A stretch of DNA of 64,000 nucleotides from Ectothiorhodospiraceae bacterium BW-2. GTDB taxonomy: Bacteria > Pseudomonadota > Gammaproteobacteria > Thiohalomonadales > Thiohalomonadaceae. The position numbers were made by a program, and so were the translations under genes. A model generated the notes under the pieces. It was given only the letters and a program-made list of their open reading frames with translations, searched no databases and was not told where the DNA came from. The stretch is from the NCBI GenBank assembly GCA_008375315.1, contig CP032507.1, forward strand, positions 3,496,071 through 3,560,070. Reading direction: 5' to 3'. Below, one piece after another: positions 40,755 to 52,002 of the stretch. Each line of letters begins with the position of its first letter. The stretch's first letter is position 1.

Positions 40755-41426
40755 ATGAAGCAAGCGGTTGTCATTTTATCAGGCGGGCAGGACTCCACCA
40801 CCTGCCTCTATTGGGCGCTATCGCGCTGGGAGCGAACGCAACTGACTGCACTCACCTTCGACTATGGCCAGCGCCACCGAGCAGAGCTTCACGCTGCCCG
40901 TCAGATTGCCGCACTAGCGGGAGTTAGCCATCTCGAACTGCCGCTAAATACCTTTGCCGCCCTCGGTGGCACTGCGCTAACCGAGGCCTCGATTGCTGTC
41001 GAGCCGCCGACAACGGGACTACCCAATACCTTTGTCCCGGGTCGGAATCTCATCTTTCTCACCTTTGCCGCCGCATTAGCTTGGCAGCAGGGGGCACACC
41101 ACCTAGTCACCGGTGTCGCCCAGACCGACTACAGCGGCTATCCCGACTGCCGCCAACCGACGATTGCGGCCCAGCAGCGAGCGCTACAACTGGGGCTAGA
41201 GTACGATATAACTATCCATACCCCGCTCATGGAGCTCACCAAAGCAGAGACGGTGACACTAGCACAACAGCTCGGAGCGATGGAGGCGCTCGCTTGGAGC
41301 CATAGCTGCTATAACGGTAGCATCCCCCCCTGTGGCCACTGCGCTGCCTGCCAACTACGAGCGGCCGGTTTTGCCACCGCCGGCGTGGTCGATCCACTAC
41401 GACAACGATTAGGCCTAACCCCATGA
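40755..41426 (+). CDS. queC: 7-cyano-7-deazaguanine synthase QueC
   Basis: Makes preQ0 in the queuosine pathway, using ATP and ammonia. The 223 aa contain the PP-loop SGGQDS (9-14), FVPGRNL, TDYSGYPDCR and a C-terminal zinc-binding set (C in SHSCYNG, then CGHCAAC). AAGGAG lies 9-10 nt before the ATG. Its stop overlaps the next gene by 4 nt, coupling it to the three-domain QueD-like protein that acts one step earlier. I see no preQ1 riboswitch in the 122-nt upstream region. Confidence 0.96.
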   Translation: MKQAVVILSGGQDSTTCLYWALSRWERTQLTALTFDYGQRHRAELHAARQIAALAGVSHLELPLNTFAALGGTALTEASIAVEPPTTGLPNTFVPGRNLIFLTFAAALAWQQGAHHLVTGVAQTDYSGYPDCRQPTIAAQQRALQLGLEYDITIHTPLMELTKAETVTLAQQLGAMEALAWSHSCYNGSIPPCGHCAACQLRAAGFATAGVVDPLRQRLGLTP

Positions 41427-42481
41427 GCAGCCCTCTCTATGCCGTAGCCACCGCATCGTTCGAAGCCGCCTGCCGCCTCGAATCGCTACCTGCCCACCAC
41501 CCGGCACGGGCACTCCACGGCCACTCCTATCTAGCGCAGCTGCGTTGTCGCTATCCCGATCATAGCGATCCCGAAGCGCTACGACAGCAGCTACAGCAGG
41601 CGGTTACCCCGCTCGACTACTGCGATTTAAATAGGGTGATCGCCGAACCGAGCGATGAGAATATCGCCCGCTGGCTGCATACCCAACTTAAACCGCTTCA
41701 GCCACAACAGATCGGCATCCAGAGCGTTGCCACCCAAGGGGTCGATCTCGATAGTCAAGAGAGTGCCCATATCTGGCATAGGTTCCGCTTTGAAGCGGCC
41801 CACCAGCTACCTAATGTCCCGCCAGGACACCCATGTGGTCGAATGCATGGCCACGGTTTTGAGGTCATTCTCCATCTACAACAGCCCCTCCATGGAGCCA
41901 TCATGGGCTACGACTATCGCCAGCTACAGCAGCTATGGCAGCCGCTACATCAACAGCTACACCAGCGCTGTTTGAACGATATTGCCGGACTGGAGAACCC
42001 CACCAGCGAACAGCTCTGCCGTTGGATTTGGCGCCAGCTAAAACCCAAACTACCGCTACTCTCCTGGGTAACTAGCTACGAGACCCACAGCTCAGGCTGC
42101 CACTATAATGGCGAACAGTACCATATCTGGAAAGAGCTGCGTTTTGAGAGCGCCCTAAAACGCGCCGTGGCCGGTCAACCACGACTCTATGGCCACAGCT
42201 ACCGTATTCGGCTCCATCTGACTGCCCCGCTCGATGCCGTTTTGGGCTGGACAGTCGATTACGGAGAGGTCAAACAGCTCTTTCAACCGATCTATCAGCA
42301 GCTCGATCACCAGCTACTAAACCAACAGCTTGCCGAGCCCTCGCTGCCCAACCTGCTCTACCACATTGAGGCGGCGCTAGTGCCAAGGCTACCGCAGTTA
42401 AGCCGAATCGATCTGCTGCAAACGCCCGAGATCGGGGCGGTGTTGCAGCGCGAGACGGGGGAGCCGGTGGTACCGGTTTAG
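41423..42481 (+). CDS. Three-domain QueD-like (6-carboxytetrahydropterin synthase) protein
   Basis: The 352 aa are three tandem T-fold domains of about 115 residues; E. coli QueD has one. Domain 2 (about 116-234) has the Zn set H127, H142, H144, the catalytic Cys C138 and E220, but its LDH dyad reads HQ (180-181). Domain 3 (about 235-345) has lost the Zn His and Cys (L245, Y256) yet keeps the dyad D295-H296. Domain 1 keeps H32 and H34 with Cys for the first His (C17), lacks the catalytic Cys, and has D65-Y66. So a complete catalytic set exists only across domains 2 and 3. Coupled to queC by a 4-nt overlap. Confidence 0.88.
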   Translation: MSSPLYAVATASFEAACRLESLPAHHPARALHGHSYLAQLRCRYPDHSDPEALRQQLQQAVTPLDYCDLNRVIAEPSDENIARWLHTQLKPLQPQQIGIQSVATQGVDLDSQESAHIWHRFRFEAAHQLPNVPPGHPCGRMHGHGFEVILHLQQPLHGAIMGYDYRQLQQLWQPLHQQLHQRCLNDIAGLENPTSEQLCRWIWRQLKPKLPLLSWVTSYETHSSGCHYNGEQYHIWKELRFESALKRAVAGQPRLYGHSYRIRLHLTAPLDAVLGWTVDYGEVKQLFQPIYQQLDHQLLNQQLAEPSLPNLLYHIEAALVPRLPQLSRIDLLQTPEIGAVLQRETGEPVVPV

Positions 42482-47007: not shown

Positions 47008-49983
47008 TTAATGGCCCCTCTTTTTGCTGCGATTAAGGCGTGAGGCAAGACGACGCGCCAGCTCACCAAACAGTTCGGTTTGGGTCGGATGGGGGTGGAT
47101 AGCGCGGCCAACCTGCTCTAAAGTCATCTCGCCACTGACCATCAGCACCGCCTCCCCGATGAGGGTATCGGTATGGTCGGCTAACAGATGCACCCCGATA
47201 ATTTTATGGCTCACCCTATCGGCCACTAGCTTAATCAGACCGTGGCTCTCACCGGTAAGCATCGCTTTAGCATCGATACTCATAGGAACCTTGATCTCAA
47301 CGGCATCGATCCCCCGCGCCTTGGCCTGCTCCACCGAAAGACCGACAAAACCGGCCTCCGGTCGGGTAAAGATAACCCCGGAGTCTTTGCTCTCATCGTA
47401 ATAGCTCTCCTCACCCAAAATAGCCGCTGCCGCAACGCGTCCCTGCTCTCCGGCAGTGTGGGCTAACATCAAGCCGCCAATCACATCGCCTACCGCAAAG
47501 ATATGCGGCACAGAGGTACGACAGCGGCTATCGGCTCGAATGACCCCCTTAGCGACAGCCACCCCGGCGTTTTCGAGCTTTAGTGGCTCCAATACCGGCC
47601 GCTTACCGGTTGCCATGATGACATAGTCGCACTCAAACTGGCGCGACTGGCCGTCACTATCGTCGAACTCCATCACCATCGCCCCAGGCTTGCCCCTAAG
47701 CTGGGTCACCTTAACGGAGGTATAGAGGGTTAAGTTAGGGTCTTGATTTAGAACCGCTGTGAGCTGTGTGGCCACCTCCGACTCTACTTCGGCTAACACT
47801 CTATCCTTGCCTTCGAGCAGCACCACTTCGGTACCAAAATCTTGGAAGATTTGCGCCATCTCCATTCCAATCGCACCGCCACCAATCACTCCGAGCCTCT
47901 TCGGTATCTCAGGCAGGCTCCAGACACTATCCGATGTGAGCAGGCCACCACAGCTCACCCCCTCATCGACGCCGGCAATAGGGGGGAGAAACGGCGGTGC
48001 GCCGGTAGCAATGACGGCGCAGCCGAAGGTTAGGTGACGCCCCTCAGAGCCATCGCCAACTAAGGCTCGCTGGTGGGGATTATCGGCATTCGCTGAGGTA
48101 TCAATGAAGAGCCTATGATCGGTCTCAAACCAAGCAAACCCCTGAATAACATCAATTTTAACGCCGCGATCAGTATTGAGTGCCATCTTACCGCGCGTCT
48201 CTAATACAGAACGGCGATGCTGCTCTAGCACCGGCCAGTTTAGCGTTGGCCGGTTCGTCCCTTCAACGCCTAACAGCGCATCGTGAGCGCGATCACGCAT
48301 CCTATCCGCGGCCGCCCGCCACGCTTTAGAGGGGATACAGCCGCGCCAGAGACACTCGCCGCCCGGATAGGGGGCATCATTAATCATAGCGATTTTCAGC
48401 CCGTGACCGGCCAGATCGCGGGCGCAATCCTCACCCCCGGGGCCACCGCCAATGACCACGACATCGTAGTCCCACTCCCCCTCTGGAATCGCAGGGCCTA
48501 ACGGCCCCATCCAGCTCTCAGGCTGCTCAATCTTCTCCTTCACCGTATTGAGCCAAGCCGCCACCTCCGCCCCGTTCACCACGCGGTGATCTGCCGTGAC
48601 TGTGACCGGCATGCCAGCAGCCCCCGCAGCGGCAATGGCGACAATAGCCGCCGTTCCGGGGGTAGGAATGGCATCGAAGTAGTCAACCCCCATCATCCCC
48701 ATATTGGAGATCATAAAGGTAGGATTGGCATACTCCTCTGGTGCAAGACGCCGCTTACGCGCCCTATCGACCAAATCTTTCCAGTTACTATGTAGCTCCT
48801 CCAGTGGCCGCGACTCCACCTGTCGGAGCACCGGCACGACTAGACCGTTCCCCTCGGCCGTCACCGCCATACCGATATCGACCTGACTGCGTTCGACAAT
48901 TTTATCGACCGGCTGATAGCACCAATTGAGGGAGGGGTGGGCTTTAATCGCCTCGGCACACGCCTTAGCAATCGCAATGGTCACCGAAACACCGACCCTT
49001 TTTGCCGCCTTAATCAACGCTTCGGGTTGAATCGTTCGGGTCACATGGAATGTCGGCATGGTGAGTGAAGCGGTCATCGAGGCTGAGACTGCTCGCTCCA
49101 TCGCGCTCATCGGCCGCCCCTCACCGGGCACCTGCACCTGCGGTAAAATATGCGCCGGCACCGGTTCGACAATTTGGGTCGGCCGACTCACCGGCTGGGC
49201 ACGACGCACATCCTCGGCGTTAATTTCGCCTTGGGGGCCGCTGCCGTTAAGATTATTCAAATTGACCTGCAGCGAGGCGGCCACCTTGCGCGCATAGGGG
49301 GTCGCGCTCTTATTGGCTGGACGAGGAGCCGGAGTCACCGCGACAGCCATCGCAGCCGGTGCGAAGGCGGGCGCTAGCTCAGATTGGGAGTTTGGTTTTG
49401 CAGCGACGGTGACAGTGACCGACTGCGCAACCACCGCCTCTCTGCTATCGACAAGGTAGGCGATCGCCTCACCGACGGCGACCACCGAATCGATGGCGGC
49501 AATAGGCCCGGAGAGATACCCTTCACGAAAGACCTCGACATCCATAATCGCCTTATCGGTCTCGACTTGGGCGACAATATCGCCTCGCTCGACTCTATCG
49601 CCAATCGACTTCTCCCAGCCAACGACCACCCCCTCGGTCATGGTATCTGAGAGCTGCGGCATCTTAATAGTATGGCTCGCCTTTGCAGAGGCCGGTTCCG
49701 GTTCAGCCACTGCGGCGATATCGCGCCCCACCTCTGCCGCACTAGCCACTAGATAACCGAGGGCCGCACCCACGGCAACTGTGGCGTCGATTTCGGCTAG
49801 CGGGCCAGAGAGATAGCCCTCCCGAAACACCTCGACATCCATAATCGCCTTGTCGGTCTCTACGGTGGCGACCACATCCCCCCGCTCGATCTTGTCACCG
49901 GGTTGCTTCTCCCAGCTCACCACAACCCCTTCGGTCATGGTATCTGAGAGCTGCGGCATCTTTATGACATAAGGTTCGGCCAT
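47008..49983 (-). CDS. Pyruvate dehydrogenase E2-E3 fusion: two lipoyl domains, acyltransferase, dihydrolipoyl dehydrogenase
   Basis: One 991-aa chain with two near-identical lipoyl domains (K45 and K144, each in ETDKAIMDVEVF), an E1/E3-binding domain (about 228-262), the E2 acyltransferase core (about 285-490) and a complete flavin disulfide reductase (about 503-985). The reductase has FAD motif GGGPGG, redox cysteines C544 and C549 (GGECLWRGCIPSK), NAD motif GGGAIGME, and the C-terminal His-Glu in HPHPTQTE. The E2 active-site motif reads DHRVVNG, with Asn (470) for the usual Asp. It ends the pdhA-pdhB-E2E3 unit, 43 nt after pdhB. E2 and E3 are normally separate proteins. Confidence 0.93.
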   Translation of the reverse strand: MAEPYVIKMPQLSDTMTEGVVVSWEKQPGDKIERGDVVATVETDKAIMDVEVFREGYLSGPLAEIDATVAVGAALGYLVASAAEVGRDIAAVAEPEPASAKASHTIKMPQLSDTMTEGVVVGWEKSIGDRVERGDIVAQVETDKAIMDVEVFREGYLSGPIAAIDSVVAVGEAIAYLVDSREAVVAQSVTVTVAAKPNSQSELAPAFAPAAMAVAVTPAPRPANKSATPYARKVAASLQVNLNNLNGSGPQGEINAEDVRRAQPVSRPTQIVEPVPAHILPQVQVPGEGRPMSAMERAVSASMTASLTMPTFHVTRTIQPEALIKAAKRVGVSVTIAIAKACAEAIKAHPSLNWCYQPVDKIVERSQVDIGMAVTAEGNGLVVPVLRQVESRPLEELHSNWKDLVDRARKRRLAPEEYANPTFMISNMGMMGVDYFDAIPTPGTAAIVAIAAAGAAGMPVTVTADHRVVNGAEVAAWLNTVKEKIEQPESWMGPLGPAIPEGEWDYDVVVIGGGPGGEDCARDLAGHGLKIAMINDAPYPGGECLWRGCIPSKAWRAAADRMRDRAHDALLGVEGTNRPTLNWPVLEQHRRSVLETRGKMALNTDRGVKIDVIQGFAWFETDHRLFIDTSANADNPHQRALVGDGSEGRHLTFGCAVIATGAPPFLPPIAGVDEGVSCGGLLTSDSVWSLPEIPKRLGVIGGGAIGMEMAQIFQDFGTEVVLLEGKDRVLAEVESEVATQLTAVLNQDPNLTLYTSVKVTQLRGKPGAMVMEFDDSDGQSRQFECDYVIMATGKRPVLEPLKLENAGVAVAKGVIRADSRCRTSVPHIFAVGDVIGGLMLAHTAGEQGRVAAAAILGEESYYDESKDSGVIFTRPEAGFVGLSVEQAKARGIDAVEIKVPMSIDAKAMLTGESHGLIKLVADRVSHKIIGVHLLADHTDTLIGEAVLMVSGEMTLEQVGRAIHPHPTQTELFGELARRLASRLNRSKKRGH

Positions 49984-50026: not shown

Positions 50027-51010
50027 TCAGACTTTGCCGACTATCTTCAGCACAGCCTGAACCACAGCGCCAGCATTCGGTATCGCCGCCTTCTCCAGGC
50101 CATGGTTATAGGGGATCGGGACATTGGCGGCTGAGACCCGAACCGGTGGTGCATCGAGTTCGAAAAAGCACTCCTCGTTAATAAGGGCCATCACCTCAGC
50201 GCCGACACCCACAGCAGGCTCGGCCTCTTCAGCAATGAGCGCCCGATGCGTTTTGCTGACCGACTCACGAATACCTACCCGATCTAGCGGATTGAGGGCA
50301 TAGAGATCGACCACTTCGCAATCGATGCCATGCTTTTTAGCCAGCGTCTCTGCCGCCTGTAGGCACCAGTGTACCGAAACATTGTAACCAAACAGGGTGA
50401 TATCTCTCCCCTTGCGGGCCACTTCTGAGCCTTCGAGCGGGTGGAAGTACTCCTCATCGGGCACCTCGCCTTTCATATTGTACATCAGCTCATGTTCGTT
50501 AATAAAAACCGGATCGTTGCAACGCACTGCGGATTTAATTAAACCATAGGCTTGGCGTGGATTGGAGGGGGTCACCACGCGCAGGCCGGCAATCCCCATA
50601 AAGACCTTCTCCATTCGCGCCGAGTGCTGGGCGCCGAGCTGGTGCGCCGTGCCGCCGGGGGAGCGAATCACCACCGGTGCCTCTAGCTGACCACCCGACA
50701 TATAGCGCACTTTGGCCGCCGAGTTGACAATCTGGTCGGTCGCTAGCCAAGCGAAGTTAACCGACATAATTTCGATAATGGGTCGCACGCCAACAAAAGA
50801 GGCCCCAATACCGAGACCGGTATAGCTATTTTCTGAGATCGGCGTATCGATCACTCGCTCCGGGCCATACTTATCATAGAGCCCTTGGGTCGCCTTGTAG
50901 GTTCCGCCAGCGATACCGATATCCTCTCCCATACAGATGACTAAAGGGTCTCTAGCCATCTCCTCATCGTGAGCGCGACGAATCGCCTCCCAGTACATGA
51001 TCTCAGCCAT
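50027..51010 (-). CDS. pdhB: Pyruvate dehydrogenase E1 component, beta subunit
   Basis: The 327 aa from ATG 51010 show the transketolase-like pyrimidine domain (MGEDIG, the ThDP Glu in DTPISENSYTGLGIG, MSGGQ) and the C-terminal domain (ITLFGYNVSVHWCLQAAE). The start overlaps the pdhA stop by 1 nt (TAATG) and has GGAGG upstream within pdhA. This is preferred over the longer frame from 51034. It pairs with PdhA as the alpha2-beta2 E1. Confidence 0.95.
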   Translation of the reverse strand: MAEIMYWEAIRRAHDEEMARDPLVICMGEDIGIAGGTYKATQGLYDKYGPERVIDTPISENSYTGLGIGASFVGVRPIIEIMSVNFAWLATDQIVNSAAKVRYMSGGQLEAPVVIRSPGGTAHQLGAQHSARMEKVFMGIAGLRVVTPSNPRQAYGLIKSAVRCNDPVFINEHELMYNMKGEVPDEEYFHPLEGSEVARKGRDITLFGYNVSVHWCLQAAETLAKKHGIDCEVVDLYALNPLDRVGIRESVSKTHRALIAEEAEPAVGVGAEVMALINEECFFELDAPPVRVSAANVPIPYNHGLEKAAIPNAGAVVQAVLKIVGKV

Positions 51011-52002
51011 TATGCCACCCCTCCTTTGACCCATGGGTCGTTCTCCGCCAATACATACCGCTCTAGCTCCGCGACATCGGGCTCGGCTGACGCCTCACAG
51101 AAGGCGATAATATCGCGCTCAATCGACTCGATAATCTCCTTATCTAGCTGCTGATAATCGATATCGGTCATCTCTCCGGCCTCAATGAGGCGGTTGCGCA
51201 AAATCGTAATCGGATCGCGTTTGCCCCACATCTGCTCCTCATCCTTACTCCGATAAGCATTAGAGTCAGACATTGAGTGGCCACGATAACGATACGTCAT
51301 TAACTCCAGCATATAGGGGCCTTGACCAGAGCGAACATGATCGACCGCGATTTTGGCCGCCTCATAGACTTGATCGATATCCTGCCCATCCGCCTGCGCT
51401 GAGGGGATATTGTAGCCACAGGTGCGTTTGTATTGGTCTTGCACTGCCGTGGAGCGATCAATGCGAGTCCCAATCCCATAGAGATTGTTTTCAGTTACAA
51501 ACAGCACCGGTAGCTCCCAAATAGCCGCCATATTCATCGATTCGTGAAAGGTGCCCTGGTTATTAGCCGCATCGCCTAGAAAACAGATGGAGATCTCATC
51601 GCCCCCCTTTAACTTAATCCCCTTAGCCATCCCAACGGCTAACGGGAACGGGCCGCCAACCAGCGCATAGCCCCCCATAAAACGGTGCTTAACATCAAAA
51701 ATGTGCATCGAACCGCCACGCCCTTTCGAAGAGCCGCTCTCCTTACCATAGAGCTCCGCCATCACCGCCTTCGGATCAGCCCCGCATTTAAGCGCATGGA
51801 CATGATCGCGGTAACCGGTAATCACATAGTCCACTCCGGGTCGCGCGGCCTCCATCACTCCATGGACACACGCCTCCTCCCCCGGATAGAGGTGGAGGAA
51901 CCCCCCAATTTTGCGTTCTACATAGGCCTCGTAGCACCGCTCCTCAAAGCGGCGGGCAAAGAGCATCTCCCGCAATAGTCGTTTTTTATCCGCAGCGTTC
52001 AT
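51010..52002 (-). CDS. pdhA: Pyruvate dehydrogenase E1 component, alpha subunit
   Basis: The 330 aa carry the ThDP-binding motif GDAANNQGTFHES...NN and the RYRGHSMSD loop of branched-chain/pyruvate E1-alpha proteins. It decarboxylates pyruvate and passes the acetyl unit to the lipoyl arms of the E2-E3 fusion. The alpha/beta form of E1 differs from the single-chain AceE of E. coli. It follows purA by 21 nt, so the pdh genes may be expressed from the long hflK-purA transcript. Confidence 0.95.
   Translation of the reverse strand: MNAADKKRLLREMLFARRFEERCYEAYVERKIGGFLHLYPGEEACVHGVMEAARPGVDYVITGYRDHVHALKCGADPKAVMAELYGKESGSSKGRGGSMHIFDVKHRFMGGYALVGGPFPLAVGMAKGIKLKGGDEISICFLGDAANNQGTFHESMNMAAIWELPVLFVTENNLYGIGTRIDRSTAVQDQYKRTCGYNIPSAQADGQDIDQVYEAAKIAVDHVRSGQGPYMLELMTYRYRGHSMSDSNAYRSKDEEQMWGKRDPITILRNRLIEAGEMTDIDYQQLDKEIIESIERDIIAFCEASAEPDVAELERYVLAENDPWVKGGVA

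Follow-up and report, generated by a model that had tools for sequence, protein, structure and literature searches.

The 352-residue chain described here is predicted to be QueD, the 6-carboxytetrahydropterin synthase, which acts on dihydroneopterin triphosphate early in the route to the tRNA base queuosine. Most probably (at roughly 0.85) it is the QueD of its genome in the form of a covalent trimer, whose one composite active site would lie where its second and third domains meet. It is encoded in a stretch of 64,000 nucleotides from Ectothiorhodospiraceae bacterium BW-2, which is referred to below as the window. The features concerned, in window coordinates, are:

40755-41426, forward strand: queC (Pfam QueC 237 bits; TIGR00364 224.9 bits against a cut-off of 150.3)
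41423-42481, forward strand: triple-domain QueD gene, 352 aa, ATG start; predicted covalent trimer with a single composite site
41423-41761, forward strand: domain 1 (residues 1-113), a pseudo-domain with C17, A28, H32, H34, D65-Y66, D78 and S101
41762-42118, forward strand: domain 2 (residues 114-232), the zinc/Cys/Glu half, its own dyad degenerate (H180-Q181)
41801-41854, forward strand: codons of H127, C138, H142 and H144, the zinc ligands and catalytic Cys, in C-x3-HGH
42080-42082, forward strand: codon of E220, equivalent to E. coli E110, the pterin anchor
42119-42478, forward strand: domain 3 (residues 233-352), the Asp-His half, its zinc/Cys half lost
42305-42310, forward strand: codons of D295-H296, equivalent to E. 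coli D70-H71

In the proposed mechanism, the three tandem T-fold domains would close into one barrel ring, with a single chain taking the place of the native homotrimer, and one of the three equivalent sites would have been retained after triplication. Domain 2 would give the zinc ligands (H127, H142 and H144), C138, PTSE and E220, and domain 3 would give D295-H296 together with the Gly-Trp...Asp...Phe helix face. The interfaces 1/2 and 3/1 would be broken on both sides, with domain 1 mainly structural, and two chains would probably be stacked head to head in the manner of the native hexamer. We infer the meeting of the two halves at one site, and likewise the chemistry and the oligomer.

The start of the triple QueD gene overlaps the end of queC by 4 nt (ATGA), and Pfam returned PTPS in three stretches of the chain (160 bits) with no other Pfam match; the reading frame, its three QueD domains and its coupling to queC, as named in the original prediction, were thereby confirmed. 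The source genome consists of one contig of 4.07 Mb with a completeness of 99.7%, in which a profile search found three PTPS matches, all of them domains of this protein. The second, single-domain queD that was to be looked for is absent from that contig, the triple protein holding the only PTPS domains of the genome. A queE gene is located elsewhere, at position 1791108 of the genome (TIGR04349, 310 bits), and queF and tgt are also encoded. Going by what is known of the pathway, the triple protein must be the QueD of this genome if preQ0 is made by the known route. Around the gene, no RNA family matches were found, promoter-like matches stood at chance level, and terminator-like sites numbered 3 against 1.4 +/- 1.5 expected, which is not clearly above chance. 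The window also encodes, at 47008-49983 on the reverse strand, a 991-aa E2-E3 fusion in which two lipoyl domains, an E3-binding domain, the E2 acyltransferase and a complete dihydrolipoamide dehydrogenase are joined in one polypeptide, beside a transketolase-type E1-beta at 50027-51034.

Assessed with the TIGR03367 model of QueD, the whole chain scores 135.3 bits and passes the cut-off of 89.25, whereas its isolated domains 1, 2 and 3 score 26.9, 71.5 and 45.5 bits, none of them reaching that value. The QueD annotation is therefore earned only by the sum of the three domains, each being under the cut-off alone, and an annotation trap is exposed in which three sub-threshold domains add up to a pass. 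The full set of QueD residues, namely three zinc His, the Cys in C-x3-HGH, the Asp-His dyad and the Glu, is likewise obtained only by pooling domains 2 and 3; no single domain of the window protein holds it complete. Linkage to queC/queE and the Q pathway is found in the overlap with queC and in the queE, queF and tgt genes of the genome. An ordinary QueD has one T-fold domain per chain, identical subunits and equivalent sites, but the present chain has three non-equivalent domains, and for this reason it is filed as a variant of QueD and not as an ordinary member. It also stands apart from bimodular QueF, with Pfam giving PTPS only and queF being a separate gene in the genome.

A search among relatives yielded three full-length triple homologues with 42-51% identity, and 18 of 369 genomes of the same class were found to carry a triple besides the window's own. 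A contig scan with the domain 3 alignment, using patterns around GW..D and IWK of that domain, gave 340 hits, from which 80 loci were kept. The compared set comprises 96 distinct triple proteins, the window's included, which are mostly gammaproteobacterial; the named sources are Thiothrix, Thiocapsa, Thiorhodococcus, Halochromatium, Competibacter, Contendobacter, Methylotetracoccus and Magnetococcales. Triple QueDs constitute a large and apparently undescribed family, and searches of the literature did not find a description of a triple QueD, in agreement with the earlier remark that none was known for such a protein. Scanning viral sequences with the domain 3 alignment gave no match, and among plasmid records the only matches were single-domain QueDs aligned over part of the query, with no triple. 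Triples were also observed in short contigs from MAGs assigned to other phyla, namely L069 (Planctomycetota), L084 (cyanobacterial) and L038 (Nitrospinaceae); mis-binning is the likely explanation at least for L084, which sits among Competibacteraceae in the tree.

The genomic context of the family is consistent, with queC directly upstream in 71 of the 96 triple loci, queE directly downstream in 70 of the 96, and one or both adjoining in 86 of the 96, several of the remainder having short flanks. It is hardly credible that these proteins possess another PTPS-family activity (PTPS-II/III-like or unknown) in place of that of QueD. The paralogues of COG0720 do serve several pathways (PMC5041015), and the isolated domains do score under the QueD cut-off; however, the whole chain at 135.3 lies above that equivalog cut-off, its C-x3-HGH is like that of E. 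coli QueD, and the triples occur in queC/queE operons, with no PTPS elsewhere in 16 of the 18 other triple genomes tested. As separate observations, the triple genome G340 also encodes a complete single-domain QueD-like protein (815-1309 of L158, reverse strand) scoring 95.2 bits, above the cut-off, which represents a natural redundancy, and G347 encodes a divergent PTPS paralogue (718-1221 of L159, reverse strand) scoring 47.4 bits, under the QueD cut-off, directly upstream of an ORF that resembles, by eye, a short-chain dehydrogenase. The G347 paralogue possibly serves a pterin pathway unrelated to queuosine.

Residues were assigned by aligning each domain of the window protein with E. coli QueD. 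Domain 2, with 50% identity to P. aeruginosa QueD, has H127, C138, H142, H144, T194-S195-E196 and E220, and H180-Q181 at the dyad position. Domain 3 has retained K237, G275-W276, D279, F287 and D295-H296 and is altered elsewhere, carrying L245, Y256, P309 and Q333 and having no Cys. In domain 1, the first zinc His is replaced by C17 and the Cys by A28, H32 and H34 are kept, the dyad reads D65-Y66, and D78 takes the place of S85; E. coli E110 is matched by S101 in this domain and by Q333 in domain 3. The residues listed for domain 2 in the original prediction (H127, C138, H142, H144 and E220, with H180-Q181 at the dyad) are correct in this alignment, as are C17, H32, H34 and the missing Cys of domain 1. 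The claim that domain 3 had kept D295-H296 stood as well; its companion, that the zinc site there had been lost, holds only in part, for H258 remains, and the position of Y256 is occupied by His in 90 of the 96 relatives.

This division of residues is shared by the homologues, as the composite reading had called for. H127, C138, H142, H144, E220 and H296 are each found in 96 of 96 triples, D295 in 95 of the 95 that are readable (one being unknown), the PTSE of domain 2 in 96 of 96 and K237 in 94 of 96. Position 180 is occupied by His (55), Asp (36), Gln (2), Asn (2) or Glu (1), and position 181 by His (46), Tyr (21), Leu (12) and others; Asp-His is still present in domain 2 of 16 of the 96 proteins, and this is counted against the composite-site reading. 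When the scored active-site positions were left out of tree building, no change was recorded at 127, 138, 142, 144, 220, 295 or 296, against 21 at 180 and 27 at 181; some forks of this tree are poorly supported and some branches are long, so that the counts are approximate, but the contrast with zero is not. The outcome on which the idea was to fall, a normal queD elsewhere combined with poorly conserved C138 and D295-H296, did not occur, there being no other PTPS and the residues being invariant. At the level of sequence, a site composed from domains 2 and 3 is thus supported by complementary conservation in the 96 proteins, by the lack of another PTPS, by the queC/queE operons and by the domain tree.

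One might argue instead that domain 2 alone is the enzyme, assembling with itself or using H180 or another group as the base, and that domains 1 and 3 are scaffold only. The 50% identity of domain 2 to P. aeruginosa QueD, its intact zinc, Cys, PTSE and Glu positions, and the His or Asp found at position 180 in 91 of the 96 proteins all speak for such an arrangement, which is nonetheless very unlikely: D295-H296 and the helix face are invariant in domain 3 despite its lost zinc site, while the dyad of domain 2 changes 21 and 27 times, and a mere scaffold role would not keep D295-H296 fixed.

The split extends beyond the residues named in the original prediction. Comparison of 15 single-domain QueDs gave 48 reference columns with a conservation of 90% or more; in the triples, 15 of these columns hold that level only in domain 2 (H16, C27, R29, F35, G79, L80, N82, T84, S85, E86, W93, E110, T111, C116 and G120) and another 10 do so only in domain 3 (K8, S34, G50, W51, D54, F62, D70, H71, L100 and P101). 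Domain 2 retains residues of E. coli 16-35 and 75-120 and has lost G50, W51, F62 and mostly D70-H71; domain 3 retains G50, W51, F62 and D70-H71 and has lost H16, C27, T84, S85, E86 and C116. Domains 2 and 3 together cover 40 of the 48 QueD-conserved columns, compared with 31 for domains 1 and 2 and 29 for domain 2 alone, the best single domain. A contrast as strong as the one observed between the middle segment (E. coli 44-73) and the remaining columns arose in 17 of 20000 column shuffles and in none of 47 circular shifts. As a check on ascertainment, the columns K8, G50, W51 and D54 were dropped, since the scan patterns contained them in domain 3; the contrast was then reached in 153 of 20000 shuffles for all proteins and in 22 of 20000 for the 19 HMM-only proteins, the model that found these 19 having itself been built from four triples. 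The way in which the loci were collected does not account for the split pattern.

Run with 70 family sequences, AlphaFold2 produced a model with a pLDDT of 91.9 and a pTM of 0.90, in whose secondary structure the beta-beta-alpha-alpha-beta-beta module of a T-fold, arranged edge to edge, occurs three times over, the last strand of each domain being joined to the first strand of the next by a linker of about 4 residues. Superposition of domain 2 on 4ntn, a structure of E. coli QueD, gave a VIA Z of 13.4 (1.2 A, 118 residues). On the tandem T-folds of urate oxidase, domains 1 and 2 superpose as one body with Z 11.5 (208 residues), and domains 2 and 3, taken from a separate model (pLDDT 83.6, pTM 0.81), do so with Z 12.8 (211 residues), the rmsd being about 4 A in both cases. 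Because the domain pairs superpose in this fashion, the modelled domains are neighbouring staves of a T-fold barrel, and the ring arrangement is supported by the AlphaFold model and the urate oxidase superposition together. QueF was not among the best 50 structural matches of the model of domains 2 and 3.

The sites of native PTPS and QueD lie between subunits, one of which gives the zinc ligands, the Cys and the Glu, and the next the Asp-His dyad. Nar et al. are said to have reported in 1994 that one PTPS subunit supplies Cys42 and Glu133 and the adjoining one His89, a partition that matches the split between domains 2 and 3 exactly. PTPS is a dimer of trimers with its sites between three adjacent monomers (PMC7546909), and the title of Burgisser 1995, as it stands in the reference list of the same paper, names an "intersubunit catalytic triad" of PTPS. 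Homology and the conservation pattern make it most likely that site 2 faces domain 3 and not domain 1. In urate oxidase, Phe159, Arg176 and Gln228 lie with Asn254. The sites of that enzyme are formed between protomers, Thr57 and Asn254 being on different protomers, with a Lys10*-Thr57* dyad contributed by the partner (PMC7792999). The domain pair of urate oxidase matches the forward order of the model, and its sites should therefore be at the next forward interface; by this analogy, the downstream domain would give the first-strand Lys and the helix residues, and domain 3 keeps the K8 and G50-H71 set, with the remainder kept by domain 2.

Pairing in the reverse sense, in which each zinc half is set against the Asp-His half of the domain before it, would generate two non-canonical sites (Zn2 with D65-Y66, and the pocket of domain 1 with D295-H296) for new chemistry or regulation. 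The fixed residues of domain 1, namely HGH (96/96), Y66 (93/96), D78 (96/96) and S101 (93/96), could be cited in its favour, and so could bimodular QueF, where the motif is in one domain and the Cys/Glu are in the other (PMC5372742). Such a pairing is extremely unlikely, however, as genomes that have a full Q pathway and this protein as their sole PTPS would be left with no canonical site, and the geometry of urate oxidase favours the forward direction. The QueF motif is in the N domain, which would speak for the reverse direction if the two domains of QueF join in the forward sense.

Outside the proposed composite site between domains 2 and 3, domain 1 is a conserved pseudo-site and is not in plain decay. 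Across the 96 triples (L005-L007 and L037-L116 included), it has HGH in 96, S85D in 96, H71Y in 93 and E110S in 93, and the position of its first zinc ligand is occupied by Arg in 56, Cys in 33, Leu in 6 and Ser in 1, never by His. The notion that domain 1 might hold metal is unsupported as a family trait by this distribution and was set aside. Pure structural decay does not account for the kept HGH and the fixed substitutions, and these are counted against the composite-site reading. Domain 1 may do no more than complete the barrel, or a second function may belong to its pocket. It is conceivable, though doubtful, that the two lost sites have been repurposed, such that HGH, Tyr66, Asp78 and Ser101 of domain 1 would form, with a neighbouring domain, a conserved non-catalytic pocket for the binding of a pterin or deazaguanine effector or for the docking of QueC/QueE. 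Were this true, QueD would here be allosteric or channelling, and each covalent trimer would contain one catalytic site together with one or two regulatory ones.

In the domain tree, each domain type forms one clade (SH-aLRT 100, 99 and 98), and the three clades group together, apart from the single-domain QueDs (SH-aLRT 88, from few columns), with domain 2 having the shortest stem. These sequence relationships fit a history in which a QueD was triplicated internally once, long ago, and its domains then divided the labour. The triple is found in 0 of 19 other genomes of the window's family (G001-G019), 18 of which encode a distantly related PTPS with one domain (about 31-37% identity), and this suggests that queC and the triple queD were acquired together by transfer in the window's lineage and that the other form was lost.

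If the composite-site reading is true, the protein would be a textbook homotrimer turned by nature into one covalent chain, with two of three equivalent sites discarded and the last shared by two non-identical modules. The split would separate the contributions of each side of the intersubunit PTPS/QueD site, which a symmetric enzyme cannot show, and function with one site per ring would become testable by simple point mutants. QueD would also gain a parallel to bimodular QueF within the same pathway.

Among known systems, single-domain QueD (E. coli 4ntk/3qn0; P. aeruginosa 2oba; TIGR03367, COG0720 PTPS-I) shares with the triple protein the T-fold, the zinc His triad, C-x3-HGH, the Asp-His dyad, the Glu anchor, PTSE and the queC/queE context, with domain 2 being 47-50% identical; it is, however, a dimer of trimers with six equal sites, whereas the triple has three domains per chain and one complete residue set spread over two of them. 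Rat and human PTPS (1gtq, 3i2b) have the same fold, the zinc site and, going by the title of Burgisser 1995, an intersubunit Cys-Asp-His triad, but they are single-domain homohexamers of 24-26% identity. Urate oxidase and GTP cyclohydrolase IB carry adjacent T-fold modules in each chain and match domains 1 and 2 as well as domains 2 and 3 with Z values of about 10-13, yet their sequence identity is 5-12%, their chemistry differs, and they have two modules and a larger barrel. Bimodular QueF of the E. coli/V. cholerae type resembles the triple in belonging to the same pathway and in its duplicated T-fold, split site elements and interdomain site (PMC5372742); it differs as a nitrile reductase of another family with two domains and no closed tunnel, and by analogy it may be regarded as the nearest published precedent for a split-site T-fold.
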